From: Cystobacter ferrugineus | GTDB taxonomy: Bacteria > Myxococcota > Myxococcia > Myxococcales > Myxococcaceae | NCBI RefSeq assembly: GCF_001887355.1 | Contig: NZ_MPIN01000008.1 | Span: forward strand, 113,935 to 177,934 | DNA length: 64,000 nt | Direction of reading: 5' to 3' | Shown: positions 38,328-52,979 of the stretch, piece after piece | Numbering within the stretch: position 1 is the first letter of the stretch | How the letters are laid out: each line of letters starts with the position of its first letter | Translations under genes and position numbers: made by a program | The notes under the pieces: model-generated | What the model was told of the DNA's origin: nothing | What the model saw: only the letters and a program-made list of their open reading frames with translations | Database searches by the model: none

Positions 38328-41300
38328 TCAGAAGGTGAGCGGCAACATGAACGCCGTGCCGTTCTCCGCGCCGGTGCGGTAGCTGAGCGGCGCGCCGATG
38401 ACGAGCGAGGGCGGCGTCCTGGTGTCCCCCGGCGTGAGCGCCAGGGACTGGCCGAAGTTGGCGCGCTCCGCCGTGTCGCCCGTGAGCAGGAGCCAGGGCG
38501 AGGGCGCCCCCTTGATGGCCGGCCCGCCCTCGTACACGAACACCGCGCCCCCACCGTCCGAGGCCACCGAGGCGCCCGAGGCACTCACGATCAGCTCCGG
38601 CACGCCATCTTTCGTCAGGTCCACGTTGCCGCGCACCACCGCTCCGAAGTTCACGGCCCGCGTCGGACTCACCACCATGAGGGGATTGAGGTCCACGGCC
38701 TTCACATTCACCTCGCCCGTGGCGGGCCGGCGCTTGCTCACTTCCGCCACGTCGATCAGCAACACCGACGGCTGCGTCACGCCCTCATAGGGGATGTTGG
38801 TCGCGGTCACCGCCAGATAGTCCGCGCCGCTCTTCCCGAGCACACGGCCCACGCGCGCCGTCGAGCCTCCCAGCCCGGCGTAGAGACCCGGGGCATCCGC
38901 TTGCCGATCCGCCAGGCGCACCGTCGTTGGTACCTTGCGCGCGCACTTCGCGCCACTCGTGTCATGGCCGAACAGGATGATGACGTTCGACGCCGAGCCA
39001 TCCGCGGCGCGCCACGCCACCTCGTCACACCCGTCACCATCCAGGTCGCCCAGCGCCGCCGGGGCCGAGGTCTGCCGGTCGTAGTACGGCGACGAGTAGA
39101 CGGGATCACACCCCATGGACAGCTTCGACAGCGAGAGGTCATCCGGAGCGCGGCCCAGGAAGAGCTCGAAGCCGTTGTTGCGCAGCACGCCGATGTCCTG
39201 CTTGCCGTCGCCATTGAGGTCGAAGCCCCCCAGGACCGAGCGCCCGAGGGCGCGGCGCTGACAGACGGAGCCCGTGCCGGTGCAACCGGCGATGTCCCCC
39301 GGAGCCCACAGCCAGTAGGCCTGCTTGAAGCTCCCGTCCGCCTGGCCGAGCGACACCAGCACCCCCCCGGCCTCCAGACTCGACGCCGGCACGCACGCGG
39401 CATTCTCCTTGAAGTAGGGCTCGATCTCCGTTTTGCGCACGTTGGCGCCCGGCTGGATGAAGTTGCTCGCCCCCACCACCGCGTCCGCCCTCCCATCCCC
39501 GTTGAAGTCCGTGAAGGCCACGTCCGAGCCCACTCTGCGCCCGCGCCAGAGCGGCGCGGAAGCGCCCTCGGCCGCGAGCGTGGCCCGCGTGGCGTCGCGC
39601 ACCCAGGCGCGGCCGGCGTTCAAGTCGTTGCCATCCTCGCTGGGCCCCGGCCCCCCCCAGCCCTGCGCGCCAATCAGCGCCACCGCGCCGCCCTGGGCCC
39701 CCTTGGCCACCGCCACGCCCTCTCCATAGCGCTCCTTGCTCGGCCGCGCCGGCACCATGGCGCTCGTGCGCGTCCACTCGGCGAGCGACGCTCCCGCCTC
39801 GAGGTAGGCATCCACGCGTCCGGTGAAGGCCAGCCCGAGCCCGCTATCCGAGGCCCGTCCCGCGAAGGCCACCAGCGCCGAGGTGCCGGGCAGCGACCAC
39901 GCCGCGAGCCCCGCGCCCAGGGCGTCCGACTTCGTCTGCCCCTGCAGGGCGAGGAGCGGTTTGTTGAGCACCGCGCCCTTCACCAGGGTCGCCAGGGGGT
40001 GGACGATGATCCTCCCCGCCAGGCGCAGCGGCGTGCTCGGAGACGCGGAGGGCGCACCCAGCAGCAATTCCGGACCGGGATTGCCATCCACATCCATCAC
40101 CGCCCAGCTCCGCCCCGCGGTGCCACCCGTCGCGTCCCCATACAGACGGGCGAAGGCCGCCTCGCGCTTGATCTGCACGGGAGTCGTCGCGGGCTCGCCC
40201 TGGGGCTTGTACGTGCTCAGGTCGAAGAGCAGCGCGCCTCCCGCGTCGGTCATCGCGCTCAACCCACCGCTGGTGCGCAGATCCGGCGCGTCCGTCTTGT
40301 CCGCCAACACCATCAGCAAGGGAGGCCGGGAGCCCTCGCCCGGCACCGTCGCCAGACGCCACGTCCCCTCGCCTTTGTCCGCCGGGTAGTTGGAGGGCAG
40401 CACGATCAGGTCCGGCGCCGAGCGGATGCGCTCACCGTTCCCGCGCGCGAAGAACACCGCCACGGTCTGCGGCATCACGTCATCGAGGGAGCCATCCGAG
40501 TTGAAGAACGACGCCTTGCTGAGCGCCGCCAGGTCACCCAGCCCATCCCCATTCAGGTCCGCCACCACCAGCGCGCGGCCCAGCTCCGTGCCCTTGCGCG
40601 ACTCGAGCGTGCCGCCCTTGCCCAGGTCCGCGCCGCCCAGGCGGGTGGTCGGAAGCTGCGGCACCGTCTGGCCCGGGGTGAGCAGGTAGATGTCCACGAC
40701 GCCGCGGTTGGACCCCGACCCGGGCACCAGGTCCGCCGTGGGCGAGCCCACCACCAGATCCAGGTCCCCATCCCCATCCATGTCCGCGAGCGCCAGGCCC
40801 GAGCCGAAGAAGCCACGGCCCGTGTTGGTCACGGGATTGCCGATGCGCTCCGGACCCTTCTCGCCGAAGCGGTACAGGTACACCGCGCCCGAGTCAGCGA
40901 TGGTGGTGTCCGCGCCCGGCGAGGACACCACCAGCTCCGCCCGGCCATCCTTGTCCAGGTCCCCCGCGAGCACCGTGTCGCCGAAGAGGGCCGAGTTCGT
41001 CTCACCGACGAGCACCCAGGTGGGCTGCGCGGGCAGGCCCGACAGGCTGCCCTTGAAGATGAACACCGCGCCCCCGGACGGCCTGCCGAGGTCGCTCTCG
41101 CGCCGGCCCACGGCCACGTCCTCCACCCCATCCCCATCGAAGTCCGCCGTCACCACCGAGGCCACGTCCGTGAGCAGCCCGTGCGCCTGCGTCTCGCGCG
41201 TCAGCTCCGTCATCACGTGCACCGACAGGGTCGCCTTCTCGCCGGTGAACGCGTCCGTCGCCTCCACCTGTGCCGTGCCCGTGTCCTCCGGCGAGCTCAC

Positions 41301-41996
41301 GAAACGCCCGCCCTCCACCCGGCCCGGGCCCGACACCTTCGCCCAGAGCACCCGGTCGGTGCCCCCCTCGGCCCGCAGTGGAATGGACGAACCCGACGGC
41401 AGCCCCAGGAACGCCGGGCTGCCCCGAAGCCGCGCGTTCTTGCGCACCTCGAACTGGAGCTGGGCCACATCGCCCGAGCGGTCATCGCGCACCCGCACCA
41501 GATCCACGCCCTCGCCCTGGCCGGCCGTGTACACGCCCGTGGGCGACACGGTGCTGCCCGTGGCCCCCGCGTCCAGCGAGAAGACGGGCGAGCCCAACAG
41601 GCCCGTCACCTCCACCTGGAAGCTCGTGCCCGGCTTGAGCGTGGCTCGCGTGGGCGCCACGCCAAAGGCCGCCACCACGGACATCTGCAACCGCGCGTCG
41701 CCGGGGCAGCGCATGTCCTCCACCACCACGGTGTCCGTGCCGGGAGTGGGACCGGCGACGAAGCGCGAGCCATTCACCTGTCCCGAGGAGCCGCCCGGCT
41801 CGAGACGGTAGGAGTAGTAGCCGCTGCCGCCCGCGGCCTTGAGGTTGACGCCCACGTTCACGCGCACCTGGGTGCTGTCCGCGGTGAGGGTCAGGGGCGC
41901 GAGGCCCACGCAGGCATCCACCGGATCCTCGCCAGGGTCCGGGCAGGCAGACAACAGCAGCGCGAGCGCGAGCGACGCGCGGAAGGCTCGATTCAT
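38328..41996 (-). CDS. Large FG-GAP/VCBS-repeat lipoprotein
   Basis: A 1,222-aa surface lipoprotein (signal ending LLLSAC). Residues 25-270 form Ig-like beta domains with repeated SPTGVYTAG-type strands; after that come at least eight integrin-alpha-like FG-GAP repeats with Ca-binding loops (DFDGDGVEDVAVG, DLDKDGRAELVVSSPGAD, DMDGDGDLDLVVGSP, DLNGDGLGDLAAL, DFNGDGRADAVVGAS, DLNGDGKQDIGVL). It should be a Ca-stabilised beta propeller for binding a polymer or a protein partner. It is the last gene of a five-gene operon, 11 bases after the preceding stop. Confidence 0.9.
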   Translation of the reverse strand: MNRAFRASLALALLLSACPDPGEDPVDACVGLAPLTLTADSTQVRVNVGVNLKAAGGSGYYSYRLEPGGSSGQVNGSRFVAGPTPGTDTVVVEDMRCPGDARLQMSVVAAFGVAPTRATLKPGTSFQVEVTGLLGSPVFSLDAGATGSTVSPTGVYTAGQGEGVDLVRVRDDRSGDVAQLQFEVRKNARLRGSPAFLGLPSGSSIPLRAEGGTDRVLWAKVSGPGRVEGGRFVSSPEDTGTAQVEATDAFTGEKATLSVHVMTELTRETQAHGLLTDVASVVTADFDGDGVEDVAVGRRESDLGRPSGGAVFIFKGSLSGLPAQPTWVLVGETNSALFGDTVLAGDLDKDGRAELVVSSPGADTTIADSGAVYLYRFGEKGPERIGNPVTNTGRGFFGSGLALADMDGDGDLDLVVGSPTADLVPGSGSNRGVVDIYLLTPGQTVPQLPTTRLGGADLGKGGTLESRKGTELGRALVVADLNGDGLGDLAALSKASFFNSDGSLDDVMPQTVAVFFARGNGERIRSAPDLIVLPSNYPADKGEGTWRLATVPGEGSRPPLLMVLADKTDAPDLRTSGGLSAMTDAGGALLFDLSTYKPQGEPATTPVQIKREAAFARLYGDATGGTAGRSWAVMDVDGNPGPELLLGAPSASPSTPLRLAGRIIVHPLATLVKGAVLNKPLLALQGQTKSDALGAGLAAWSLPGTSALVAFAGRASDSGLGLAFTGRVDAYLEAGASLAEWTRTSAMVPARPSKERYGEGVAVAKGAQGGAVALIGAQGWGGPGPSEDGNDLNAGRAWVRDATRATLAAEGASAPLWRGRRVGSDVAFTDFNGDGRADAVVGASNFIQPGANVRKTEIEPYFKENAACVPASSLEAGGVLVSLGQADGSFKQAYWLWAPGDIAGCTGTGSVCQRRALGRSVLGGFDLNGDGKQDIGVLRNNGFELFLGRAPDDLSLSKLSMGCDPVYSSPYYDRQTSAPAALGDLDGDGCDEVAWRAADGSASNVIILFGHDTSGAKCARKVPTTVRLADRQADAPGLYAGLGGSTARVGRVLGKSGADYLAVTATNIPYEGVTQPSVLLIDVAEVSKRRPATGEVNVKAVDLNPLMVVSPTRAVNFGAVVRGNVDLTKDGVPELIVSASGASVASDGGGAVFVYEGGPAIKGAPSPWLLLTGDTAERANFGQSLALTPGDTRTPPSLVIGAPLSYRTGAENGTAFMLPLTF

Positions 41997-42007
41997 GGTG
42001 GAGCGCC

Positions 42008-43558
42008 TCAGGGGTTGGCGCCGGTAGCCGCCCAGCGCTGGATACGGATGATGAGCTGCGGATCCAAGGGGCCGTCCGCGGGCATGCGCTGCTCACGCAC
42101 CGCCGCGATGATGAGGGAGGCGTTGTCCTTCCACAGCTCGTACGTGGACAGCGGCCGGCCCGGCCCCGCCGACTCATGGCACTTCGCGCAACGCTCCTGG
42201 TGGATGGGGCGGATGTCCTTGTCCCAGCCCAGCACCACCGTGCTCAGCGGCTCGTAGGAGAAGGCCACCGAGCGCCGGGCCTGGGTGCCATCCGCGTAGG
42301 TCGCCACGGCGCTCAGCGTGTGCAGGCCCGCCTCCAGGCCCGCGAAGGAGTAGGAGCGGGGCGTCCCGTCCGCCTCCACGCCCCCGAGGCTGTACGCCGG
42401 CCCCTCCACCATCACCTCCGCGCCCCCCACCTCGAAGGCCAGGCGCTCGGGCGGCGTCGCGCCCGGAGCCACGCGCGCGCTCACCACCAGCATGTCCTCC
42501 ACCACCGTCATGCCCTCGTACAGGCCAATCACCCGGGGAACCGGACCCCAGCTCAGCGCCAGCGTGTCCGCGCCCAGTTGCACCCACGCGCAGCCGCTCT
42601 CGTCGGCCGCCAGGAAACGGAACTCGCGGGTATCCACGTTGGCGGCGGTGCCCCACGTGTCCGCGTCCGCGTCATAGGACAGCAGCGCGTCACCCGACTT
42701 CACCCAGACGAAGCGGCCCGCGGCCAGCACCTGGGTGGGCGGCCGCTCCAGCAACACCGCGCGCCAGCCCCGCGCCGTGTGCCGCAACAGCCGCTCGGAC
42801 GTCATCACCCACGCCTCCGCCCCCCCCTTCTCCGAGGCCCCCAGGCCCACCAGCGCCACCACGCGCTCGCCGTCCTGGAGCGGCACCGCGGCGGGACGCA
42901 CCTGCCACACGTCCGGCGCCGTCTGCACCGCGACGCGCAGCTCACCGTCGCGCAGCAGCCACAGCGCCGAGGCCACCTTGTCCACCGGGGCCGCCACCAG
43001 GGAGGTGATGCCATCCAGCGTCTGCCCCTCCACCTTGAGCGCCGCGAGCTGGCCATCGCGCAGCCGGTACAGGCCCGACTCATGCGCCAGCCACGCCACG
43101 CCCTCGGCCGTCGACGCGGTGGCCTCGAGCCCCGGGCCGAGCAGCTCGCGCCAGGGCGGCGCGATGAGCCAGCCCGCCTGCGCCAGGAAGAGGCCATTGG
43201 AGGCCTCCACCAGCGCCGAGTTCGTCCCCATCCGGAAGGCGGCATGTACCCGCCCCGGGGCCACCCGGTTGCCCGGGTGGTTCTCCAGCGCGCCCCGCGT
43301 CCCATCCAACCGCAAGCGGATGGCCTCGCCCGACGCCGTCGCGAAGATGCCGCCTCCCGTCTGGTCCGCGAAGCCCGGCGCCGCCGCCACGTCCGCCCGC
43401 GCCTTCACCAGCATGGGCTGGAAGGGCACGGGGCTCGGACGATCCACCGCGACGGATGGGCCACACCCCCCCAGCCCCATCCCCACCAGGCACAACAACC
43501 GCCACCCCCACGACCGCCAGGGCGCACGGGACTCGAAGTTCGAGGCTCGGGTCTTCAT
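42008..43558 (-). CDS. Lipoprotein with C-terminal CXXCH (cytochrome c-like) domain
   Basis: A 516-aa lipoprotein (signal ending GMGLGGC). The main part is a beta-rich, propeller-like domain; residues about 355-440 resemble an Ig-like domain; the last 65 residues (KDIRPIHQERCAKCHESAGP and onward to RIQRWAATGANP) are a mono-heme cytochrome c-like module: CAKCH and a distal Met in EQRMPAD. It probably transfers electrons at the outer membrane. It begins four bases after the DUF1501 gene in the same operon. Confidence 0.85.
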   Translation of the reverse strand: MKTRASNFESRAPWRSWGWRLLCLVGMGLGGCGPSVAVDRPSPVPFQPMLVKARADVAAAPGFADQTGGGIFATASGEAIRLRLDGTRGALENHPGNRVAPGRVHAAFRMGTNSALVEASNGLFLAQAGWLIAPPWRELLGPGLEATASTAEGVAWLAHESGLYRLRDGQLAALKVEGQTLDGITSLVAAPVDKVASALWLLRDGELRVAVQTAPDVWQVRPAAVPLQDGERVVALVGLGASEKGGAEAWVMTSERLLRHTARGWRAVLLERPPTQVLAAGRFVWVKSGDALLSYDADADTWGTAANVDTREFRFLAADESGCAWVQLGADTLALSWGPVPRVIGLYEGMTVVEDMLVVSARVAPGATPPERLAFEVGGAEVMVEGPAYSLGGVEADGTPRSYSFAGLEAGLHTLSAVATYADGTQARRSVAFSYEPLSTVVLGWDKDIRPIHQERCAKCHESAGPGRPLSTYELWKDNASLIIAAVREQRMPADGPLDPQLIIRIQRWAATGANP

Positions 43559-43562
43559 TACG

Positions 43563-44978
43563 TCACGTCAGCAGGGACCGCAGGGGCTCGACACGCGTGA
43601 TGCTGTAGTCCAGCCCGGCGGACGCCAGCACCGTCGCGATGATGTGATCCGGAAGGATGTTCTGGCCGTTGATGGGATCGGACTCGCCCGTGGCCAGGTT
43701 CACCACGGCCGGTGCCATGGCGATGTCACCGCTGCGCCCGAACACCGTGTTGTGCTTGAGCCCCGCGCCCATCAGCAGACAGCTATTGGTGAGGTGGTGG
43801 TCGCGGCCGGACGCGGCGTTCATCAGTGGCGTGCGGGCGAACTCCGAGTAGACCAGGATGGTGGTGTGGTCCATGAAGGTGTCGCCGGCCTTGTACGGGT
43901 GCGGGGTGTTGCGCAGATCCTCCACCAGCATGGCGAGCGCTTCGAAGCCCTTGCGCAGGTTGAGCGCATGCGACGTCTGCGTGCCGAAGTGGGTGTCCAG
44001 GCCCCCGGCCAGGTTGATGGACACGCACTGGCTGATGCCCTTCTTGAGCGCCGTGGCCACCAGCGCCGCGCGCCCCGCCGCGTCATCGTACGGCCCACTG
44101 TCGCCCAGGCCATAGGCCAACCGCACCGCCTCGGCTTCTTTGGTCTTCAGCTCGAAGCGGAACGATTTGTCCAGCTCGCTGGAGATGACCTGCCGCATCT
44201 GACCGCGGCTCGACGAGTACGTGGTGCCCACCCCGCCGACGCCATAGGCCGCCGCCTCGCAGGAGATGGGCTGACCGTTGAAGTCCACCAGCTGCTTCTC
44301 CAGCTCGCTGTCGAGCTGGGTGGTGCTGGGCGAGAGCGCGAGCAGCAGGTCGCTCGACTTGCTCACCTTGAGCGCGTTGGCGGAGCCCGGGTAGCGGTCG
44401 TTATACGACTCCACGTTGTAGGCAATGGAGGGGATGGGCACCGCGGGCGCCATCTGCCCCACCACTTCGGTGGCCGTGGACGAGCCTCGCGCCGAGGCAC
44501 CAATGGGACGCTTGCCGGTGATGAAGTAGCGCCTGCCCTCCTCATGCGCGAGCGTGGTCATGTTGATGCCCCGCACCACCGTCATGAGATCGTAGTGGTC
44601 CGACAGGCGGTGGACCGCCGAGCGGTTGCTCACCGCCGGACCGAAGGTGATGTTGGAGGGGGCCGCGCCCGGGCGCTTGTCCGGCACGATGGGCCGGGTG
44701 GGGATGCTCGGGTCGGTGAAGCTGTAGCCCGGGAGGATGCGCGTCTGGGACACCCGGTCCGGAGTGAAGACGTCGGGATCCCTCGGATCGAAGGCGAGGA
44801 GCTGATCCCACCCGCCATCGAAGTAGACGAAGACGAAGCAGCGGTCGGAGGGCTTGAGCGCGGTGCTCTGCGCGAAGGCGCGGAAGGGCGTGCTCCCGAA
44901 CAGGGTGGTGCCCATGAAGCCCGCGGCGGCCTTGAGGAAGGTGCGGCGTCCGGCGGACGTGTCGTGGTTCTTCTTCAT
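43563..44978 (-). CDS. DUF1501 protein with Tat signal
   Basis: A 471-aa protein with a twin-arginine signal (RRTFLKAAAGFMG), followed by a DUF1501 domain, an alkaline-phosphatase/sulfatase-superfamily fold: FVYFDGGWDQLLAF near the start, GGLDTHFGTQ, STILVYSEFART-type strand (TTILVYSEFARTPL) and GRDHHLTNSCLLMG near the C-terminus. In planctomycetes DUF1501 genes are paired with DUF1549/DUF1553 cytochrome-like genes; here the partner is the DUF1549/1592-like gene upstream. The reaction is not known. Confidence 0.88.
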   Translation of the reverse strand: MKKNHDTSAGRRTFLKAAAGFMGTTLFGSTPFRAFAQSTALKPSDRCFVFVYFDGGWDQLLAFDPRDPDVFTPDRVSQTRILPGYSFTDPSIPTRPIVPDKRPGAAPSNITFGPAVSNRSAVHRLSDHYDLMTVVRGINMTTLAHEEGRRYFITGKRPIGASARGSSTATEVVGQMAPAVPIPSIAYNVESYNDRYPGSANALKVSKSSDLLLALSPSTTQLDSELEKQLVDFNGQPISCEAAAYGVGGVGTTYSSSRGQMRQVISSELDKSFRFELKTKEAEAVRLAYGLGDSGPYDDAAGRAALVATALKKGISQCVSINLAGGLDTHFGTQTSHALNLRKGFEALAMLVEDLRNTPHPYKAGDTFMDHTTILVYSEFARTPLMNAASGRDHHLTNSCLLMGAGLKHNTVFGRSGDIAMAPAVVNLATGESDPINGQNILPDHIIATVLASAGLDYSITRVEPLRSLLT

Positions 44979-44999
44979 TGGTGCGTCTCCCCGGAGCGG

Positions 45000-45668
45000 T
45001 CAGTAGGTGAGGAAGCGGGAGTCGGTCATCAGCGCGATGCACAGGGCCGCGAGGGCCTGATCCCGCTTCTTGATCGTCTCGGCGCGAGCGGCCGCCTTGG
45101 TGAAGAAGTCCGCCCAGCGCGTCAGCTCCTCGTCATGCAACGGCGAGCCCCAGAAGCGGGTGGACAGGTACACGAGCAGCTCGCGCACCTGGGCGTCGGT
45201 GAGCTTGCGCAGGTCACCCACGGTGCCGTCGGGCAGCGGGCGGGCCAGCACCCGATCCTCCGCCACGGTCAGCTTCAGGTCCGCGCTCGCCCGGGCCACG
45301 CACACCTCGCGCGCCCCGTCCTCGAGGAACTTGGCGAACACGAGGTTGGCCTCGGTGCTCTCCGCGTTGACGAGCGCGTAGTCCGCGCGGCCCAGCGACG
45401 CCGCCCGGCTGTTGAGCTTCGACCAGGGCTGGCCCACCGCCGTCTGGATGGAGGAGCCGAGCTGATCCACGGTGAGGCGGCGCGCGGAGCGTCCCACGCG
45501 GCCGTCCTGCTGCTCCGGATCCGGCAGGGGCACCACGCCGCCGTTGCCGTGGATGCCATCGGTGGGGGGCTGCAGGACGTCCACGGGGGTGAGGGTGCCA
45601 GAGGAACCGCCCTGGTCACACGCGGCGGTGCCGAGCGCGACGAGCGCGAGCAGGAGCAGGCGGCGCAT
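45000..45668 (-). CDS. Small operon lipoprotein
   Basis: A 222-aa lipoprotein (signal ending LGTAAC). After a Pro/Gly linker it is helical and lacks Cys pairs apart from the lipid Cys and three scattered ones. It carries RRLTVDQLGSSIQTAVGQPW, which resembles the DUF1587-type start of planctomycete cytochrome-associated proteins, and a C-terminal ALCIALMTDSRFLTY that resembles the end of DUF1592/1553-type proteins. Its ATG overlaps the upstream stop codon (TGATG at 45668), so translation is coupled. It could be a partner split from the large CXXCH protein. Confidence 0.75.
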   Translation of the reverse strand: MRRLLLLALVALGTAACDQGGSSGTLTPVDVLQPPTDGIHGNGGVVPLPDPEQQDGRVGRSARRLTVDQLGSSIQTAVGQPWSKLNSRAASLGRADYALVNAESTEANLVFAKFLEDGAREVCVARASADLKLTVAEDRVLARPLPDGTVGDLRKLTDAQVRELLVYLSTRFWGSPLHDEELTRWADFFTKAAARAETIKKRDQALAALCIALMTDSRFLTY

Positions 45669-47728
45669 CAGTCGATCCTCCGGTAGGCGTCCGACAGCAG
45701 CAGACGCTCGATGAGACCCTTGAGACGGTGGTTGTCGGCGGCGAAGTCCGCGGCGAACTGCTCGAGGTAGAGCACCTGCTCCTGTGCCGACATGGGACGG
45801 CCGAGGAACTCCTCCCAGATGCGCCGCACCGCGCAGCGCTCCAGGTCCCCGCCCTGCATGAGGCGCTGCACGAGCGCCTGGGGCCCCCCCTCGATGTTCT
45901 TCTCCTCTTCGTCGTTGCGGTAGAGGTACGAGGTGAGCGTGCCCAGAAAGCGCGCGCCCCCCTCGTCATAGGCCTGCATCACGTACTGGGAGCACTCGCC
46001 ACCGCAGGAGGTGTTGCCCGCGATGGCGCAGTCGTAGCACTTGGGATCGAAGCGGGGAAAGCGCGAGGGCTCCAGGTAGAGCGCGGCGCGCTCGGCGAAG
46101 CGGCCCCAGTGCGCGCCCGTGGGCTCGATGGTGGCGTGGCAGTCCTTGCAGGCGCAGCGCGTGGCGAGGTTGTTGTCGCGGTTGCACGCGTCCTCGGCCG
46201 GGGGCGGGCGGTTGTTGGAGGGCACGAACGCCTTGCACAGGAAGGCCGAGTAGAAGTGGCTGACGCGCGCGCGCTGGGTGGGGAAGCGGTAGAGCCAGGC
46301 CGGCGTGGTGAGCACGCCCGAGTGCTGGGGGCCGCGCACGTACTCGCGCCACGTGTTCGCGTCCGCGAAGGGCAGCACCGGCATCGACTCGGCGGGGGCG
46401 GGCGAGGACAGGGAGAAGACGCCCACGCCCTGCTGGGGATCACGGTACAGCTCGGACAGGGGGCCATTCACGAAGGAGCGGCGCGTGGTGAGGATGTTGA
46501 AGTAGGGCTCGTCGTTGCGCAGCACCGAGTCGGCGATGAGCTCGGGCTCGGCGTTGATCGCCGACACCCGGGAGGAGTGGGTGACGGCGGCGGTGGTGGA
46601 GGTCGCCACATTCTCGCAGCGGCGCATCCTCTCGCCACAGCCACAGCTCCGGTCGTTATTGAAGCGCGACGTCGTGCACGACTCGAGCGTCCAGGGGTTG
46701 ACCGAGCGCTCCTGCGCCTCGATGGCGCAGATGCGCACCTCCGGCCCATTGATGTCCCAGAAGGGCGCGGGCCGCGTCACGTACCCCTCGCGCTGGATGC
46801 AGCCGCGCTGCGGCACATAGGTGCCCACCACGCCATTGCGCGGAGTCATCGTCAGCGAGCACCGGTCCAACCGCGTGAGCGTGGTGGTGTTGGTCGGATT
46901 GGCGTGCTTGAAGGCCACCACCTTGCCCGCGGAGTCCGTCTCCTCCACGGTGAGCGCGGACGTGGACCCCTTCGTCGGGTGCGGCTTGCACAGGTGCGGC
47001 ACCAGCGCGGTGCCCACCCGCCGCATGTCGCAGAAGTACATGTACTTGGGATCCAGGCGCTCCCCCACCTTCTTGTTCGTCGCCGCCTCGCACGAGTTGA
47101 TGGCCAGATCTGGGACGGGATCCTTGGTGGGATCTTCGTTGGGGACCAGATCCAACCGGTTGCACTGGTAATAGGAGATGGTGTCGTAGTCCCAGCTCAC
47201 CGGCAGCGGCACACCCCGCTCGTCGTAGCAGGCCTTGGTCGTGGTGGGCTCGGCGTGCGGATCCTGCCGGGGGGCGGTAGCACACGACTCCTGGGGGATG
47301 TAGCTGTCACAGCCGACGCCATTGGCCCCGCGCAACTGGATGCTGCTGTTGGCCCGCATGGACAGGGCTTCCGTCGCGTCCCCCTTGCCATACAGGCGGT
47401 AGTTGCCGTTGTTGTTGACGCTGCCGCTCACGTTGCTCCAGAGCAGCGCGCGGTGGTAGCCGCGCATACGCGTGTAGAACTCCTCCGAGTTCATCATCGA
47501 GCGCACGTCCTCGACGGACACCTCGCCCTTGGCCCGCACCGCCGTGTACTCCTCCACGGTGGGCGGACGGCCGAGCAGATCCAACGAGAGCTGGCGCAGG
47601 TAGCGCTCCAGGGGGACCTTCGTGACCGGAGCGCACACAGGTCCATCCTCGGCCAGAGCGGGGGTCGACCCGAGGAGCAATGCGGCGGCCAGGGGGGCGA
47701 GGACGCTGCGTGCGAGGGGCACGGGCAC
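45668..47728 (-). CDS. DUF1549/DUF1592-like exported CXXCH protein
   Basis: A 686-aa exported protein (signal ending PALA). The N-terminal LERYLRQLSLDLLGRPPTVE is the DUF1549-type opening; a Cys-rich middle (about 180-390) carries many scattered Cys; then CACKDCHATIEPTGAHWGRF gives a cytochrome c-like CKDCH site; the C-terminus (VRRIWEEFLGRPMSAQEQVL, LKGLIERLLLSDAYRR) matches the helical ends of such proteins. It heads the five-gene operon and is coupled to the next gene by TGATG. No terminator or other gene lies in the 147 bases upstream, which should hold the promoter. Confidence 0.85.
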   Translation of the reverse strand: MPVPLARSVLAPLAAALLLGSTPALAEDGPVCAPVTKVPLERYLRQLSLDLLGRPPTVEEYTAVRAKGEVSVEDVRSMMNSEEFYTRMRGYHRALLWSNVSGSVNNNGNYRLYGKGDATEALSMRANSSIQLRGANGVGCDSYIPQESCATAPRQDPHAEPTTTKACYDERGVPLPVSWDYDTISYYQCNRLDLVPNEDPTKDPVPDLAINSCEAATNKKVGERLDPKYMYFCDMRRVGTALVPHLCKPHPTKGSTSALTVEETDSAGKVVAFKHANPTNTTTLTRLDRCSLTMTPRNGVVGTYVPQRGCIQREGYVTRPAPFWDINGPEVRICAIEAQERSVNPWTLESCTTSRFNNDRSCGCGERMRRCENVATSTTAAVTHSSRVSAINAEPELIADSVLRNDEPYFNILTTRRSFVNGPLSELYRDPQQGVGVFSLSSPAPAESMPVLPFADANTWREYVRGPQHSGVLTTPAWLYRFPTQRARVSHFYSAFLCKAFVPSNNRPPPAEDACNRDNNLATRCACKDCHATIEPTGAHWGRFAERAALYLEPSRFPRFDPKCYDCAIAGNTSCGGECSQYVMQAYDEGGARFLGTLTSYLYRNDEEEKNIEGGPQALVQRLMQGGDLERCAVRRIWEEFLGRPMSAQEQVLYLEQFAADFAADNHRLKGLIERLLLSDAYRRID

Positions 47729-47875
47729 CTCCTAGACTGCGGGTGGGGGAAACCGCGGACGTGCTTTATGACATGAATTCAAACTACTGAACAAGAGGGC
47801 TTTCCCGTCAGACGAGAAAATCACGCCCTCGCTGTTCGGTTGCATCGGGGGCGAGGCCGGGTCAAAAGACGGTCC

Positions 47876-48445
47876 ATGTCCAACGCCGCCGGAGCCCCCC
47901 TGTCCCGAGGGGAGAACGATCGTCCCTTCTACATCTTCACCGCGGTGGTCTCCACCGCGGCGCTCGCGTTCCTGGCCTATCTGCTGCTCATCCGCAGGGG
48001 AGGCGCGGCGGGAGGGGTGGACCTGCGCTTCCTGCCCGCGGTGAACGCGAGCCTCAACGCGCTGGCGGCGGTGTTCCTCGCCGCGGGTTGGGTGGCCATC
48101 CGCCAGAAGGCCCGGCGCGCGCACCAGTATCTCATGGTGTCCGCCTTCGCGTCCTCGTCGCTCTTCCTGGTGTGCTACCTGGCCTACCACTACGTGCACG
48201 GGGACACGCGCTACGCGGGCGGCGGGGCGCTCAAGGTGGTGTACCTGCTCATCCTGGCCAGCCACGTGCTGTTGTCCACCGCCGTGGTGCCGGGCGCGCT
48301 GCTGGCCTTCTACTTCGCGTGGCGCAACGCCTTCGAGCGGCACCGCAAGGTGACGCGGTGGCTGGCGCCCATCTGGCTCTACGTGTCCGTGACGGGCGTG
48401 GTCATCTTCTTCATGCTGCGCGGCAGCCTGCCCTCCTCGCCCTGA
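47876..48445 (+). CDS. DUF420 membrane protein (CtaM-like)
   Basis: A 189-aa integral membrane protein with five or six helices. Conserved His residues at helix ends (HQYLMVSAF, YLAYHYVHGD, LILASHVLLS, ERHRKVTRWLAPIW) match DUF420/CtaM proteins that assist assembly of heme-copper oxidases. ATG 47876 is the first reasonable start before the membrane part. It is divergent from the DUF1549/1592 operon with 147 bases between. Confidence 0.85.
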   Translation: MSNAAGAPLSRGENDRPFYIFTAVVSTAALAFLAYLLLIRRGGAAGGVDLRFLPAVNASLNALAAVFLAAGWVAIRQKARRAHQYLMVSAFASSSLFLVCYLAYHYVHGDTRYAGGGALKVVYLLILASHVLLSTAVVPGALLAFYFAWRNAFERHRKVTRWLAPIWLYVSVTGVVIFFMLRGSLPSSP

Positions 48446-48460: not shown

Positions 48461-49642
48461 TCAGGGATGGGCCTCGGACTTGGGGGTCGGACCCAGCGCG
48501 AACGCCTCGCGGGGCAGGCGCATGGTGAAGGCCGAGCCCCGTCCCTCCTCGCTCTCCACGGTGAGGGTCCCCCCGTGCATCGTCACCATGCGGTAGGCGC
48601 TCGCCAGGCCCACGCCGCTGCCGGAGATGGCGGGCGCCACGTTACGGCCGCGGCGGAAGCGCTCGAAGATGTGGGGCAGATCCTCCGCGGGGATGCCCAT
48701 GCCCTGATCCCTCACGCACAGCCGCACCCAGCCCTCCGGGCCGGAGGACTCCTCGCTGAGCGACACGTCGATGGTGCCTCCGCGCGGGCAGTACTTCACG
48801 GCGTTGCCCAGCAGGTTGTCCAACACCCGCTCCAGGCTCGACGCGTCCCATTGGCCCCGGAAGTCCATGCCCTCCACGTGCAGCTTCACCGGGTGCGTGG
48901 CCGCCAGCGGCCCCAGTTCGCGCACCTTGGCGCGCACCAGCGCGAGCAGGTCCACCGCCTCGCGCTGCAAGGGGCGCTCGCCTCCCTTGGACACCGCGAG
49001 GAAGTGGTCGATGAGTTCGCTCATGCGCTGCGTGCCCCGGAGGATCTGCGCCAGCCGCGCCTCCACGCCCGGCGTCTGCGCCTCCTGGGGGAGCTGGCGC
49101 CGCAGGAGCTGGGTGCTCAGGAGGATGCTCTGCAGCGGGCCCTTGAGGTCATGCGTGGCGATGGCGAAGAACTCGTCGCGCACCGCCAGGGCCGCATGGG
49201 CCGCGCGTTCGGCGATTTCCGCCTGCCGGCGCCGCTCCTCCAGCTCACGCGCCATGCGCATGGACTCCACCGCGTTGTGCAGGCTGTGGCGCAGGCGCTC
49301 CGGGGAGAAACCATCCTTGAGGAGATAGTCCTGGGCGCCCGCGCGCATCGCGGCCACCGCCACGCGCTCGTTGCCGCTGCCCGTGAAGATGATCACCGCC
49401 GGCATCTGCTCGCCGCAGCGCTCCTTGAGTCGCTGCAACAGCGAGATGCCATCGAGGCCCGGCAGGTGGAAGTCCAGCACGAGGGCATCGGGCATCGGGG
49501 GGCGGTCGAGCCGCTCCAGGGCTTCCTCCGCCGAGCCCGCGAGCTCCACCTCCCAGCGCGTCCCCGTGTCCTTCTCCAGGGCACGCCGCACGGCCCGCTG
49601 ATCCGCCAGGCTGTCGTCAACGAGGAGTACGCGCAAGCTCAT
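48461..49642 (-). CDS. Response regulator-histidine kinase hybrid
   Basis: A 393-aa protein. The N-terminal REC domain (1-125) has the Asp in ALVLDFHLPGLDG and Lys in DYLLKDG; the HisKA domain (about 150-220) has the phosphoacceptor His in IATHDLKGPLQSILL; the HATPase domain (about 250-380) has N box NLLGNAVKYC, G1 DQGMGIP and G2 GSGVGL. The REC-first order suggests a kinase switched by an upstream phosphate donor. Its ATG overlaps the preceding stop by four bases, placing it last in the phytochrome operon. Confidence 0.92.
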   Translation of the reverse strand: MSLRVLLVDDSLADQRAVRRALEKDTGTRWEVELAGSAEEALERLDRPPMPDALVLDFHLPGLDGISLLQRLKERCGEQMPAVIIFTGSGNERVAVAAMRAGAQDYLLKDGFSPERLRHSLHNAVESMRMARELEERRRQAEIAERAAHAALAVRDEFFAIATHDLKGPLQSILLSTQLLRRQLPQEAQTPGVEARLAQILRGTQRMSELIDHFLAVSKGGERPLQREAVDLLALVRAKVRELGPLAATHPVKLHVEGMDFRGQWDASSLERVLDNLLGNAVKYCPRGGTIDVSLSEESSGPEGWVRLCVRDQGMGIPAEDLPHIFERFRRGRNVAPAISGSGVGLASAYRMVTMHGGTLTVESEEGRGSAFTMRLPREAFALGPTPKSEAHP

Positions 49643-50094
49643 TCCAGGGACAAGCCTCCGAGCCCGGGCAGCCGCGCGACGTTGAACCAGAAGTGCTGCA
49701 AGGCGCTCACGACGTCCTGGAGCTCCTCGAGCCCACTGGGCTTGAAGAGGTAGCTGTTGGCGCCCAGCTCATAGGCGCCATCCACGTCCTCCACACGCTT
49801 GGAGTTGGAGAAGACGATGACGGGCAGCGCGCGCAGGTGGGCGTCCGCCTTGAGCAGGGAGAGGATCTCCCGTCCGCCGACTCCGGGCAGGTGCAGATCC
49901 AACAGGACCATCACGGGCCGGGGCGCATTCACGTATGCCCCCCGCTGGAACAGATAATCGAGCGCCGACTCTCCATCCGGCACCCGCACGATGGGCCAGG
50001 ACAGTGAGACCTTACGCGCCAGGCGCTGCAGGGCCTCGGCGTCGGGATCACTGTCCTCGACGAGCAGCACGGGCCGTTTGGGCTCATCCATCAT
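49639..50094 (-). CDS. Single-domain response regulator
   Basis: A 151-aa CheY-like receiver: acidic pocket LLVEDSDPDAE, phosphoacceptor Asp in MVLLDLHLPGVGG, and VIVFSNSKRVED with SYLFKPSG for Thr/Ser and Lys. This is the Rcp1/phytochrome-associated receiver type, which takes phosphate from a bacteriophytochrome kinase. It has no output domain. ATG 50094 overlaps the BphP stop codon (ATGATGG), and the gene's own stop overlaps the next start, so it is coupled on both sides. Confidence 0.92.
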   Translation of the reverse strand: MMDEPKRPVLLVEDSDPDAEALQRLARKVSLSWPIVRVPDGESALDYLFQRGAYVNAPRPVMVLLDLHLPGVGGREILSLLKADAHLRALPVIVFSNSKRVEDVDGAYELGANSYLFKPSGLEELQDVVSALQHFWFNVARLPGLGGLSLE

Positions 50095-52331
50095 CCGGGC
50101 CCCTTGCCCAGGGTGAAGTAGAAGGTGGAGCCCTGACCGGGCGCGGACTCCACCCACAAATCGCCGCCATGCAACTGAATGAGCCGGCGCGCGATGGACA
50201 ACCCCGCTCCGCTGCCCCCTCCGTACGCATGGGCGGGGTGCAGGCGACGGAACATCTCGAAAATGGTCTCGTGGAACCGCTCGGGAATGCCGATGCCGTT
50301 GTCGCGCACGTAGAAAACGTACTCATCCGCCCGTCGGCGTGCCGGGTTGGACAGGGGTTCCTCGGGGCTGATGAAGCCCGCCTCCACCCAACGCGGCTTC
50401 CCGGCCTGGTGGTACTTGGCCGCATTGGTGAGCAGGTTGGACCAGACCTGGTGGATGCGCACACGGTCGCACGCCACCACGGGGAGTGGGCGAGGGACCT
50501 TCACCTCGATCTGGTTCTCCTGGATGCGCGCCGACACGATGGTCAACACGTCTTCCAGGATTTCCTGCATGTCCGCCTGACCCCAGGACAGCTCCACGCG
50601 TCCGACCCGGCTGAATTCGAAGAGCGCTTCCATCTGCCCCTGGGTGCGTCCGGCCAGCCACCGGACCTCCTCCAACTGCTTGCGCCCCTCGACGCCCACG
50701 GCCTCGCCCACGTCCTCCAGGAGGAAGCCCACGTACTGCTGGATGCCACGCAGCGGCTCCTTGAGGTCGTGCGCCACGGTGCCACCGAAGGCATCCAGCT
50801 CCGCGTTGGAGCGCGAGAGGGCGGCGGCATGGCGCAACAACACGCCCACCAGCGCCCCGCGCAGTCCGGAGGCGGCGGTCCGGTCCTCCTGAGACCAGGG
50901 CAGGCTCGCCCCCTGCACCGTCTCCTGCCAGGCCTCGAAGGAGGCGCGCGGGTGCAACCGCTGGGAGCCGGGGCCCTGGACGACGGGCTTGAGCGGATTG
51001 CCCGCCCAGGTGACGGTGCGCGTGACTTCCGGACGGAACCAGATGACGAAGCGGGGAGCGCTCGAGTCCAGGCGCACCGCGAGCAGGCCACTGGCCACGT
51101 CCAGGTAGGCCTGCGCGGGCTCATACACCTGGCCGAGCCGCTCCGTGTAGAAGATGGTGCCCTCGAAGGCCTGCCGTGCGAGCCACTCACCCAGGGCCTT
51201 CACCTCGTCCAGGGTGGGCGTGGCTCCCATGAGGATGGGCGCCTCGCCGAGCAGCAGGACCGCGCCCGTCGAGCCCGTGAGTCCCAGCACCGAGTCCGCC
51301 TCGCGCGAGAGCGACACCGGCAGGGAGCTCGAGTCCACGGACAGGCGCTCCATCAACTGCGTCTGGAATTGAGCCCGGCGGGCGAGCTCGGCGGCCATCG
51401 CGGCGCGCTCCTCGGCCGCCAGTTGCAGCGACACCAGCCGGGCCAGCACGTCGCACGCCCGGCGCGCGGCGGCCGGCACCCGCAGAGGGGTGCGGTGATG
51501 GCACGCGATAAGGCCCCACAGCGCGCCCTCGCGCAGCAGGGAGATGGACATGGACGCGCCCACCCCCATGTTGGCCAGGTACTCCAGGTGCACCGGCGAC
51601 ACGCTGCGCAGGGCCGCGCCGGACAGGTCCAACGGCCGTCCCAGCTCGGGGAGCACCGCGGGTACCAGCGGCACGGGCCGCGCGCGCGCATCGGCGATGA
51701 GCCGCAGGGTGTTGCGGACATAGAGGGCACGGGCCTGCACGGGGATGTCGCTCGCGGGGAAGTGCAGCCCCAGGAAGCTGTCCATCGCCGGATCCCGGCT
51801 CTCGGCCACCACCTCGCCGTGCCAGTCGGAGTCGAAGAGGTACACCATCACCCGATCGAAACCAGAGAGCGTGCGCACCGCGCCCGCCACCTCCTGCAGG
51901 AGCGCCCGCGGCCCCTTGGCCCGCGTCAGGGGCGAGAGGATCTGATCCACCATGACCAGGGCCCCCTCCTCGCTGACGTCGCCGGTGACGGGCTCCAGAT
52001 CCAGCACCGCCAGCCCATCGCTGCGGTGCAGGAGCCCCACGAAGGGGTGTCCCGCGGCCTCGATGCGCAGGGTGCCCACGGGGCCCTGCTGGGACAGGGC
52101 CCGGTTGAGCAGGGCGAGCGACGTGGGGTGCAGGAACTCCGCCAGCGGCTGGCCCAATAGTGCCTGGGGTGCCCGTCCCAACCAGGCCTCGATGTTGGCG
52201 CTCACCACCCGCAGGGTGAGGTCCGGCTCGGAGAAGGCCAACAAGGCACCGTGTGGCTGGATGCCGCCCAACAGGTGGATGGGCTCGCGGTCACATTCCG
52301 TGAGTTCAGTCTGGGAGACAGGGGGATTCAT
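50091..52331 (-). CDS. bphP: Bacteriophytochrome histidine kinase
   Basis: A 746-aa red/far-red photoreceptor. Cys13 (TECDREPIHLLGGIQPHG) is the biliverdin-binding Cys of bacterial phytochromes; PAS (about 15-115), GAF (about 135-310, FPASDIPVQAR with the chromophore Asp) and PHY (about 320-500, tongue PRASFEAW) follow; the kinase part has VAHDLKEPLRGIQQY (His-box near 525), NLLTNAAKYH, DNGIGIP and GSGAGLS. Light state would control phosphate flow to the response regulator encoded directly downstream. The ATG overlaps the heme oxygenase stop by four bases, so chromophore and apoprotein are made together. Confidence 0.95.
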   Translation of the reverse strand: MNPPVSQTELTECDREPIHLLGGIQPHGALLAFSEPDLTLRVVSANIEAWLGRAPQALLGQPLAEFLHPTSLALLNRALSQQGPVGTLRIEAAGHPFVGLLHRSDGLAVLDLEPVTGDVSEEGALVMVDQILSPLTRAKGPRALLQEVAGAVRTLSGFDRVMVYLFDSDWHGEVVAESRDPAMDSFLGLHFPASDIPVQARALYVRNTLRLIADARARPVPLVPAVLPELGRPLDLSGAALRSVSPVHLEYLANMGVGASMSISLLREGALWGLIACHHRTPLRVPAAARRACDVLARLVSLQLAAEERAAMAAELARRAQFQTQLMERLSVDSSSLPVSLSREADSVLGLTGSTGAVLLLGEAPILMGATPTLDEVKALGEWLARQAFEGTIFYTERLGQVYEPAQAYLDVASGLLAVRLDSSAPRFVIWFRPEVTRTVTWAGNPLKPVVQGPGSQRLHPRASFEAWQETVQGASLPWSQEDRTAASGLRGALVGVLLRHAAALSRSNAELDAFGGTVAHDLKEPLRGIQQYVGFLLEDVGEAVGVEGRKQLEEVRWLAGRTQGQMEALFEFSRVGRVELSWGQADMQEILEDVLTIVSARIQENQIEVKVPRPLPVVACDRVRIHQVWSNLLTNAAKYHQAGKPRWVEAGFISPEEPLSNPARRRADEYVFYVRDNGIGIPERFHETIFEMFRRLHPAHAYGGGSGAGLSIARRLIQLHGGDLWVESAPGQGSTFYFTLGKGPG

Positions 52332-52945
52332 GAAAGGGAGACCTCACGGAAACGGGCTTCGAATGCGTCGAACGTGGCCTGAGCCCCCTGGATGACGCGG
52401 GGAGCGAGCGCGGGCTCGGGACAGGCGCGCAGCAGGGCCTCACCAAAGGACTTCCACATGGGACCCACGTTCTCGCCATAGGCGCGGAAGAAGGCGAAGC
52501 GTCCCACGGGCGTGCCCTCGAAGTGGCGCGCGAGGTGCCGCAGGATGAGCTGACCTCCAAGCGTCGAGCCCTCCAGCACGTAGAGGACCCCGAGCGCCTC
52601 GGGCCCCCCGGGCACGGCGGGAGGGCGCGCGAGGGACGGCAGCCGGGCCAGGGAGTCCTCGTCGTGACCGAGCGCCAGGAGATCCTCGCGCAACAGGTGC
52701 AGCTTGCGGCGTTCGTTCACGCGCAGCTCGGGATGGGACGCCTCCAGGTGCTCGGCCACGGCCGGCTCCAGGAAGGCATGGAGCGCGTGGAGCGCCTCCA
52801 GGTGCGCGCGGTAGCCGGACACGGAGAGGCCCGGCGCCATGAGACGCACCACGCTCTCGGCGCGCTCATGGTGGGGTCGGGTTTCCGCCTTCAACGATTG
52901 CAACAGGTTGGGGGACTCGGGGGAAAGCAACACCCCTCCAAGCAT
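52328..52945 (-). CDS. bphO: Biliverdin-producing heme oxygenase
   Basis: A heme oxygenase of about 205 aa, all-helical, with the proximal heme His in ETRPHHERAES (His25/26) and the distal Gly-rich helix in VLYVLEGSTLGGQLILRHL. It opens heme to biliverdin IX-alpha, the chromophore for the phytochrome encoded immediately downstream (four-base overlap). The start is uncertain: 52972 and 52945 are ATGs, and a GGAGGGG lies just inside, favouring a still later GTG/TTG; the family's conserved part begins at about LLQSLKAET. Confidence 0.9.
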   Translation of the reverse strand: MLGGVLLSPESPNLLQSLKAETRPHHERAESVVRLMAPGLSVSGYRAHLEALHALHAFLEPAVAEHLEASHPELRVNERRKLHLLREDLLALGHDEDSLARLPSLARPPAVPGGPEALGVLYVLEGSTLGGQLILRHLARHFEGTPVGRFAFFRAYGENVGPMWKSFGEALLRACPEPALAPRVIQGAQATFDAFEARFREVSLS

Positions 52946-52960
52946 GGATGTGGGAAGGAG

Positions 52961-52979
52961 GCCGGGGAACAAGCCCGGC
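52961..52979. terminator. GC-rich hairpin between subtilase and heme oxygenase genes
   Basis: GCCGGG pairs with CCCGGC around a short AT-richer loop, about 30 bases downstream of the subtilase stop. It could end the subtilase transcript or lie in the 5' leader of the phytochrome operon. There is no U-run. Confidence 0.4.

Follow-up and report, generated by a model that had tools for sequence, protein, structure and literature searches.

A conserved five-gene module of Myxococcaceae encoding exported DUF1501, CXXCH and FG-GAP proteins

A stretch of 64,000 nucleotides from Cystobacter ferrugineus (NCBI RefSeq assembly GCF_001887355.1, contig NZ_MPIN01000008.1, positions 113,935 to 177,934 of the forward strand; hereafter the window, whose numbering is used throughout) carries five closely spaced minus-strand open reading frames (ORFs), which we call A to E (47728-38328). 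This cluster is a real and old envelope module, since nearly all Myxococcaceae keep it as a unit and it occurs in rearranged form across the phylum. The exported protein set is probably heme-containing, and the interpretation that we favor, with a probability of roughly 0.45, is that the five genes encode one envelope-anchored c-heme redox complex, with C as a metal-binding protein at its center.

45668-47728, minus strand: A, 686 residues, Sec-exported, PSCyt2/PSD4/PSCyt3/PSD2-like
45000-45668, minus strand: B, 222 residues, small lipoprotein (Cys17), weakly PSD5/DUF1595-like
43563-44978, minus strand: C, 471 residues, DUF1501 protein exported by twin-arginine translocation (Tat), predicted alkaline-phosphatase-superfamily fold
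42008-43558, minus strand: D, 516 residues, lipoprotein, propeller-like body, small c-type cytochrome domain at the C-terminus
38328-41996, minus strand: E, 1,222 residues, FG-GAP lipoprotein, integrin-alpha-like propeller with Ca-site-like loops

Conservation in the family and across the phylum

The successive spacing of the genes is -1, 21, 4 and 11 bases from A-B to D-E. The first junction is a one-base overlap (TGATG) in which the start of B lies on the stop of A, and the layout is thus as described in an earlier note on this DNA, with gaps of at most 21 bases and one coupled junction. An order-wide search covered 145 genomes, with A counted at E<1e-100 and D at E<1e-70; their co-occurrence was tallied from the two match lists, leaving out weak cytochrome hits. 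A was present in 81 genomes, all of them in the window's family (Myxococcaceae), while D was present in 79 of these 81 and in 0 of the remaining 64. A scan of named genomes with A (P0005) gave matches only in Corallococcus, Hyalangium and one metagenome-assembled genome of the Myxococcaceae. We fetched and read 26 loci, and all 26 keep the order A-B-C-D-E on one strand, with a DUF420 gene divergent beside A. The one-base overlap of A and B recurs in most of them, and the remaining gaps are mostly short, a few reaching 57-158 bases at C-D or D-E. The outer neighbors (a CBS protein, an M20 peptidase, a GGDEF protein, a histidine kinase and a phytochrome) are lost in deeper relatives, where the A-E block is retained. 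Moreover, in all 26 operon orthologues both CXXCH motifs, in A and in D, are conserved, and B, D and E keep their N-terminal lipobox cysteines.

The operon is therefore carried by nearly all Myxococcaceae and not patchily, and a gene order that recurs together with the divergent DUF420 gene in every locus read places the five-gene set far beyond chance. The earlier note had proposed one exported unit that includes two cytochrome-like proteins, akin to the planctomycete PSCyt/PSD-DUF1501 pairs, and had staked this proposal, among other conditions, on the set being conserved as a unit in relatives. It is so conserved, both in gene order and in the co-occurrence of A and D, which supports the proposal. 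In the literature that mentions DUF1501 we found nothing about this operon, and no paper joining FG-GAP and MXAN was found.

The same parts also occur in a second arrangement. A phylum-wide search with a profile of A retrieved relatives in other myxobacterial families, mostly of ~540-650 residues, and their surroundings revealed a permuted order, D-A-B-C, in at least 12 distant loci (examples are L064, L066, L070, L072, L124, L126, L128, L129, L131, L133, L135, L136 and L137). An E-related FG-GAP gene stands divergent beside D in two of them, L126 and L129; most of the D-A-B-C loci found lack E, some being contig fragments. In a tree of C, a single clade within the family (100/100) holds all operon copies, and the D-A-B-C copies fall in several other clades. 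Since these copies lie outside the operon clade, some deep family members carry both arrangements. The phylum-wide occurrence of the same parts as D-A-B-C is new here, and two arrangements are better evidence for a joint function than one conserved order. Thus, the set is tied together by function and not by position alone.

Features of the five proteins

The following short features bear on what the proteins might do:

46136-46150, minus strand: CXXCH of A (CKDCH, residues 527-531), predicted binding site of a c-type heme
42176-42190, minus strand: CXXCH of D (CAKCH, residues 457-461), MPADGP motif downstream
44934-44948, minus strand: twin-arginine motif of C (RRTFL, residues 11-15), Tat signal
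44544-44546, minus strand: His145 of C, at the nucleophile position by motif spacing, 9 residues before TGxxP

The central protein C matches DUF1501 (Pfam, E=7e-24), and 18 of 30 members of its family also show weak DUF1552 similarity. An RRxF/L Tat motif is present in all 27 C sequences. Its AlphaFold2 model (predicted local distance difference test score 79, predicted template-modeling score 0.81) matches nucleotide pyrophosphatases, PafA-type alkaline phosphatases and sulfatases with Z of 17-20 over 240-270 residues, the best match by VIA-align having a Z of 19.7 and a root-mean-square deviation of 3.1 over 243 residues, and Foldseek returned an E of 4e-5. The model thus predicts an alkaline-phosphatase-superfamily alpha/beta fold. 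In this superfamily, a Ser, Thr or Cys nucleophile sits at a helix start, nine residues ahead of a TG motif, and phosphodiesterases and sulfatases from relatives have T...TG and C...TG with this same spacing. In C, neither a Ser/Thr nor a Cys (formylglycine) nucleophile is found at the expected place, as mapped by motif spacing and helix start and not by coordinates. The residue there is His145, which is His in all operon and D-A-B-C members aligned and at which a helix of the model starts. The mapping of the active site relies on spacing because C, in a profile-profile alignment with myxobacterial phosphodiesterases and sulfatases, reached no overall significance, with matches confined to the end of the SE/SD strand and the final helix. 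In the module family D58, H145, D328, H330, E379, D393 and H394 are invariant; D54, in the first strand, is variable. Of the metal-ligand-like residues, one set is retained (D328, H330, H394), whereas the second metal-site motif is altered, the strand end reading SEF in C versus SDH in the superfamily (E379-F380 in place of D-H). Judged from these motifs, C appears to keep the fold and part of the metal site, but not the usual chemistry of the superfamily.

The CXXCH of A is followed by a conserved AxxEPxGxHWGR context and is also found in the distant module members that we read. A orthologues have 24-27 cysteines, and 170 of the 686 positions are invariant. Pfam matches to PSCyt2, PSD2, PSD4 and PSD1 in the window's A, and to PSD5 in its B, are weak. 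Among A members they recur as PSCyt2 in 23/23, PSD2 in 23/23, PSD1 in 22/23, PSD4 in 21/23 and PSCyt3, the CXXCH-bearing domain, in 19/23, with best E values of ~5e-7 for PSCyt2 and ~2e-6 for PSD2. The DUF1549/DUF1592-like character that the earlier note gave to A is hence borne out by recurrence in all or nearly all relatives, although in the window's own A these matches, and that to DUF1585, stay below the Pfam curated cut-offs. A Cys-rich insertion of ~180 residues (~115-300) is confined to the Myxococcaceae operon form, the distant A relatives aligned being without it; this beta insertion is probably disulfide-bonded. In addition, the C-terminal PSD2 region of A (~590-684) and its relatives weakly match DUF1800, DUF4214 and the phycobilisome linker domain, in sequence and in fold, and these families may share one helical domain with PSD2. 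Searching solved structures with the sequences of A, C and D returned no relative.

D combines a CXXCH motif with a cytochrome c domain, as expected of a c-type cytochrome, and an MPADGP motif downstream of the CXXCH is invariant. In locus L126, from another lineage, the relative of D scores above the curated cut-off with cytochrome c profiles. This relative (L126:7437-9431) has two tandem cytochrome domains, with CXXCH at 514 and 604. The host genome carries cytochrome c assembly genes, with three PF01578 matches. Finally, E has eight Pfam FG-GAP stretches (E=4e-40, above the cut-off), DxDxDG loops that resemble Ca sites and similarity to integrin alpha (E=5e-9).

A proposed envelope redox complex and its alternatives

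How could these proteins work together? From the gene set and its conservation, the export signals, the CXXCH motifs, the FG-GAP repeats and the predicted fold of C, we infer heme attachment, a metal in C, complex formation, electron transfer, a location and a kind of reaction. C would fold in the cytoplasm and leave via Tat, and it probably holds a metal site on the alkaline-phosphatase-superfamily fold, with His in place of the nucleophile. A would bear a single c-type heme and would, together with its small relative, the lipoprotein B, be the partner for C, as PSCyt/PSD and DUF1800 proteins would be for DUF1501 proteins elsewhere. D would be a lipidated c-type cytochrome passing electrons to or from the A-C core, while E, as a large Ca-binding propeller lipoprotein, would tether the complex to a surface or a substrate. 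The complex as a whole would carry out redox chemistry on a target at the outer membrane or beyond it.

Several observations weigh against this proposal. The Pfam matches of the window's A are all sub-threshold, as is the cytochrome profile match of its D (17.1 of 27 bits). The model of A is of low confidence in the central heme region, and a fold search with it gave nothing below an E of 1. C may be a pseudo-enzyme or a purely structural protein. Moreover, no member of the A-E set is a functionally characterized protein, and nothing links the complex to any substrate or electron acceptor.

We could instead speculate that the system is hydrolytic, in which case C would act on an extracellular polymer or lipid as an active enzyme of the phosphatase, phosphodiesterase or sulfatase type, with the cytochromes as accessories. 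The predicted fold of C is of the right type, and verrucomicrobial PSCyt genes often lie near sulfatases, and some of these PSCyt genes carry carbohydrate-binding modules (PMC5615132). However, the conserved His at the nucleophile position, the EF found where the usual DH pair follows the metal strand, and the ten scanned neighbors, free of carbohydrate-active and sulfatase genes, make this unlikely. We view with similar doubt a structural or adhesive surface complex, in which E would be the working part, through integrin-like adhesion or matrix binding, A-D would anchor, mature or regulate it, and C would be a pseudo-enzyme. Such a role would suit the size of E, the largest product, with its FG-GAP stretches and integrin-alpha-like similarity, the three lipoproteins of the operon and the missing usual nucleophile of C. 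Yet the core seems independent of E, given its absence from most D-A-B-C loci found (some of them fragments), and the CXXCH motifs, both in A and in D, stay invariant across a deep divergence, which structure alone would not require.

The earlier note had also suggested that the operon is a machine for oxidizing or degrading a polymer. This part of its proposal is not supported: a Pfam scan of the five genes and ten neighboring ORFs showed no carbohydrate-active enzyme, sulfatase or glycan importer, C is without the usual nucleophile and the operon is near-universal in Myxococcaceae. A role in polysaccharide utilization is also disfavored because Myxococcus is a proteolytic genus without growth on polysaccharides.

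A further alternative, which we consider very improbable, is an accessory cluster for respiration or oxidase assembly that acts with the neighboring DUF420 gene (PF04238, E=7.5e-42). DUF420 proteins of the CtaM type are oxidase assembly factors required for heme-copper oxidases (PMC9145763, PMC4958251), and the gene stays beside A in every locus read while the outer neighbors change. Against this, DUF420 is found in 131 of the 145 genomes, including whole families without the operon, where its neighbors, named by reading their translations, are SCO- or CtaB-like genes, a heme oxygenase or a DNA-ligase-like gene, and no DUF420 gene lies near the D-A-B-C modules of other lineages. Because the gene is present in genomes without the operon, we rejected its adjacency as evidence for operon function; of the link drawn in the earlier note, the constant divergent position remains, but with an independent gene. 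This stable neighborhood may reflect shared regulation.

Returning to the redox complex, it is tempting to go further and see in this DUF1501 protein a new redox metalloenzyme that has an alkaline-phosphatase fold and a His for the nucleophile and that is coupled to a pair of c-type cytochromes on the cell surface. D-A-B-C(-E) would then be an ancestral myxobacterial oxidoreductase that explains the orphan pairs found elsewhere. We hold this extension to be doubtful, if slightly less so than hydrolysis or adhesion. If true, it would account for many orphan PSCyt/PSD/DUF1800-DUF1501 pairs of other phyla.

Related systems and neighboring genes

DUF1501 and DUF1552 genes are the usual neighbors of PSCyt genes. 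Among known systems, the operon is closest to the PSCyt/PSD-DUF1501 (or DUF1552) pairs of planctomycetes and verrucomicrobia, which it resembles in that A combines a CXXCH with PSCyt2 (DUF1549), PSD4 (DUF1592), PSCyt3 (DUF1588) and PSD2 (DUF1585) similarity, C is a DUF1501 protein encoded next to A, and the products are exported; this pairing is found in all 26 loci and in the D-A-B-C modules. It differs in that the cytochrome, PSD and PSD5-like parts are split over D, A and B, and in the propeller-like body of D, the added FG-GAP lipoprotein and the Cys-rich insertion in A. Because the small cytochrome domain lies on a separate gene, D, and is not fused to the PSD part, while A keeps its own CXXCH, the operon is a variant form of the pair and not a standard member. 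Passages in PMC5615132, PMC2754498 and Kamneva et al. 2012 (via PMC4452313) describe PSCyt/PSD genes as of unknown function, possibly redox- or carbohydrate-linked, and passages in PMC5615132, PMC2754498 and PMC4452313 place PSCyt genes next to two families of unknown genes. Few proteins of unknown function in planctomycetes and verrucomicrobia have multiplied as much as PSCyt/PSD and DUF1501 proteins; in Rhodopirellula, for example, two such domains have 41 copies each (PMC2754498). The operon form is compact and divided into separate genes, and the searches with A and D place a single copy in each Myxococcaceae genome examined. Deletion and heme staining could thus test what reaction this large orphan family performs.

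DUF1800-DUF1501 pairs, which occur with bacterial chitin synthases (PMC5122149), share with the operon a Tat-type DUF1501 protein beside an exported helical partner, and PSD proteins have weak DUF1800 similarity at their C-terminus. In contrast, no CXXCH or cytochrome gene was seen in the pairs of this genome, and no chitin synthase lies near the operon. The alkaline phosphatase superfamily, likewise, shares with C the predicted fold and the kept D328, H330 and H394, and differs in the nucleophile position and in the D-H pair. The window's genome has six further DUF1501 genes (L058, L059, L060, L061, L062 and L063), three of them next to partners of the DUF1800 type (L060 being assigned by its similarity to L059) and the other three next to PSD-type partners. 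At L062, of the PSD type, a CXXCH-bearing lipoprotein lies between the partners.

Two features adjoin the operon upstream of A:

47876-48445, plus strand: DUF420 (CtaM-like) integral membrane protein, divergent constant neighbor outside the module proper, likely start at ATG 47876
47729-47875, no strand: intergenic region separating the divergent A and DUF420 genes, with a GGAGGT site ahead of A

The second GTG of A (47722) is the likelier start, since relatives start there and the first GTG (47728) overlaps the AGGAGGT ribosome site. The intergenic region measures 78-175 bases in 25 of 26 relatives and 302 in one. A sigma-70 scan found no promoter. An AATTC...GCATA block in this region, upstream of A, is retained in closer relatives and may be a promoter candidate. 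Beyond DUF420 lies a bacteriophytochrome cluster, consisting of a phytochrome-type histidine kinase followed by a heme oxygenase (50091-52972), with response regulators beside them (48461-50157).

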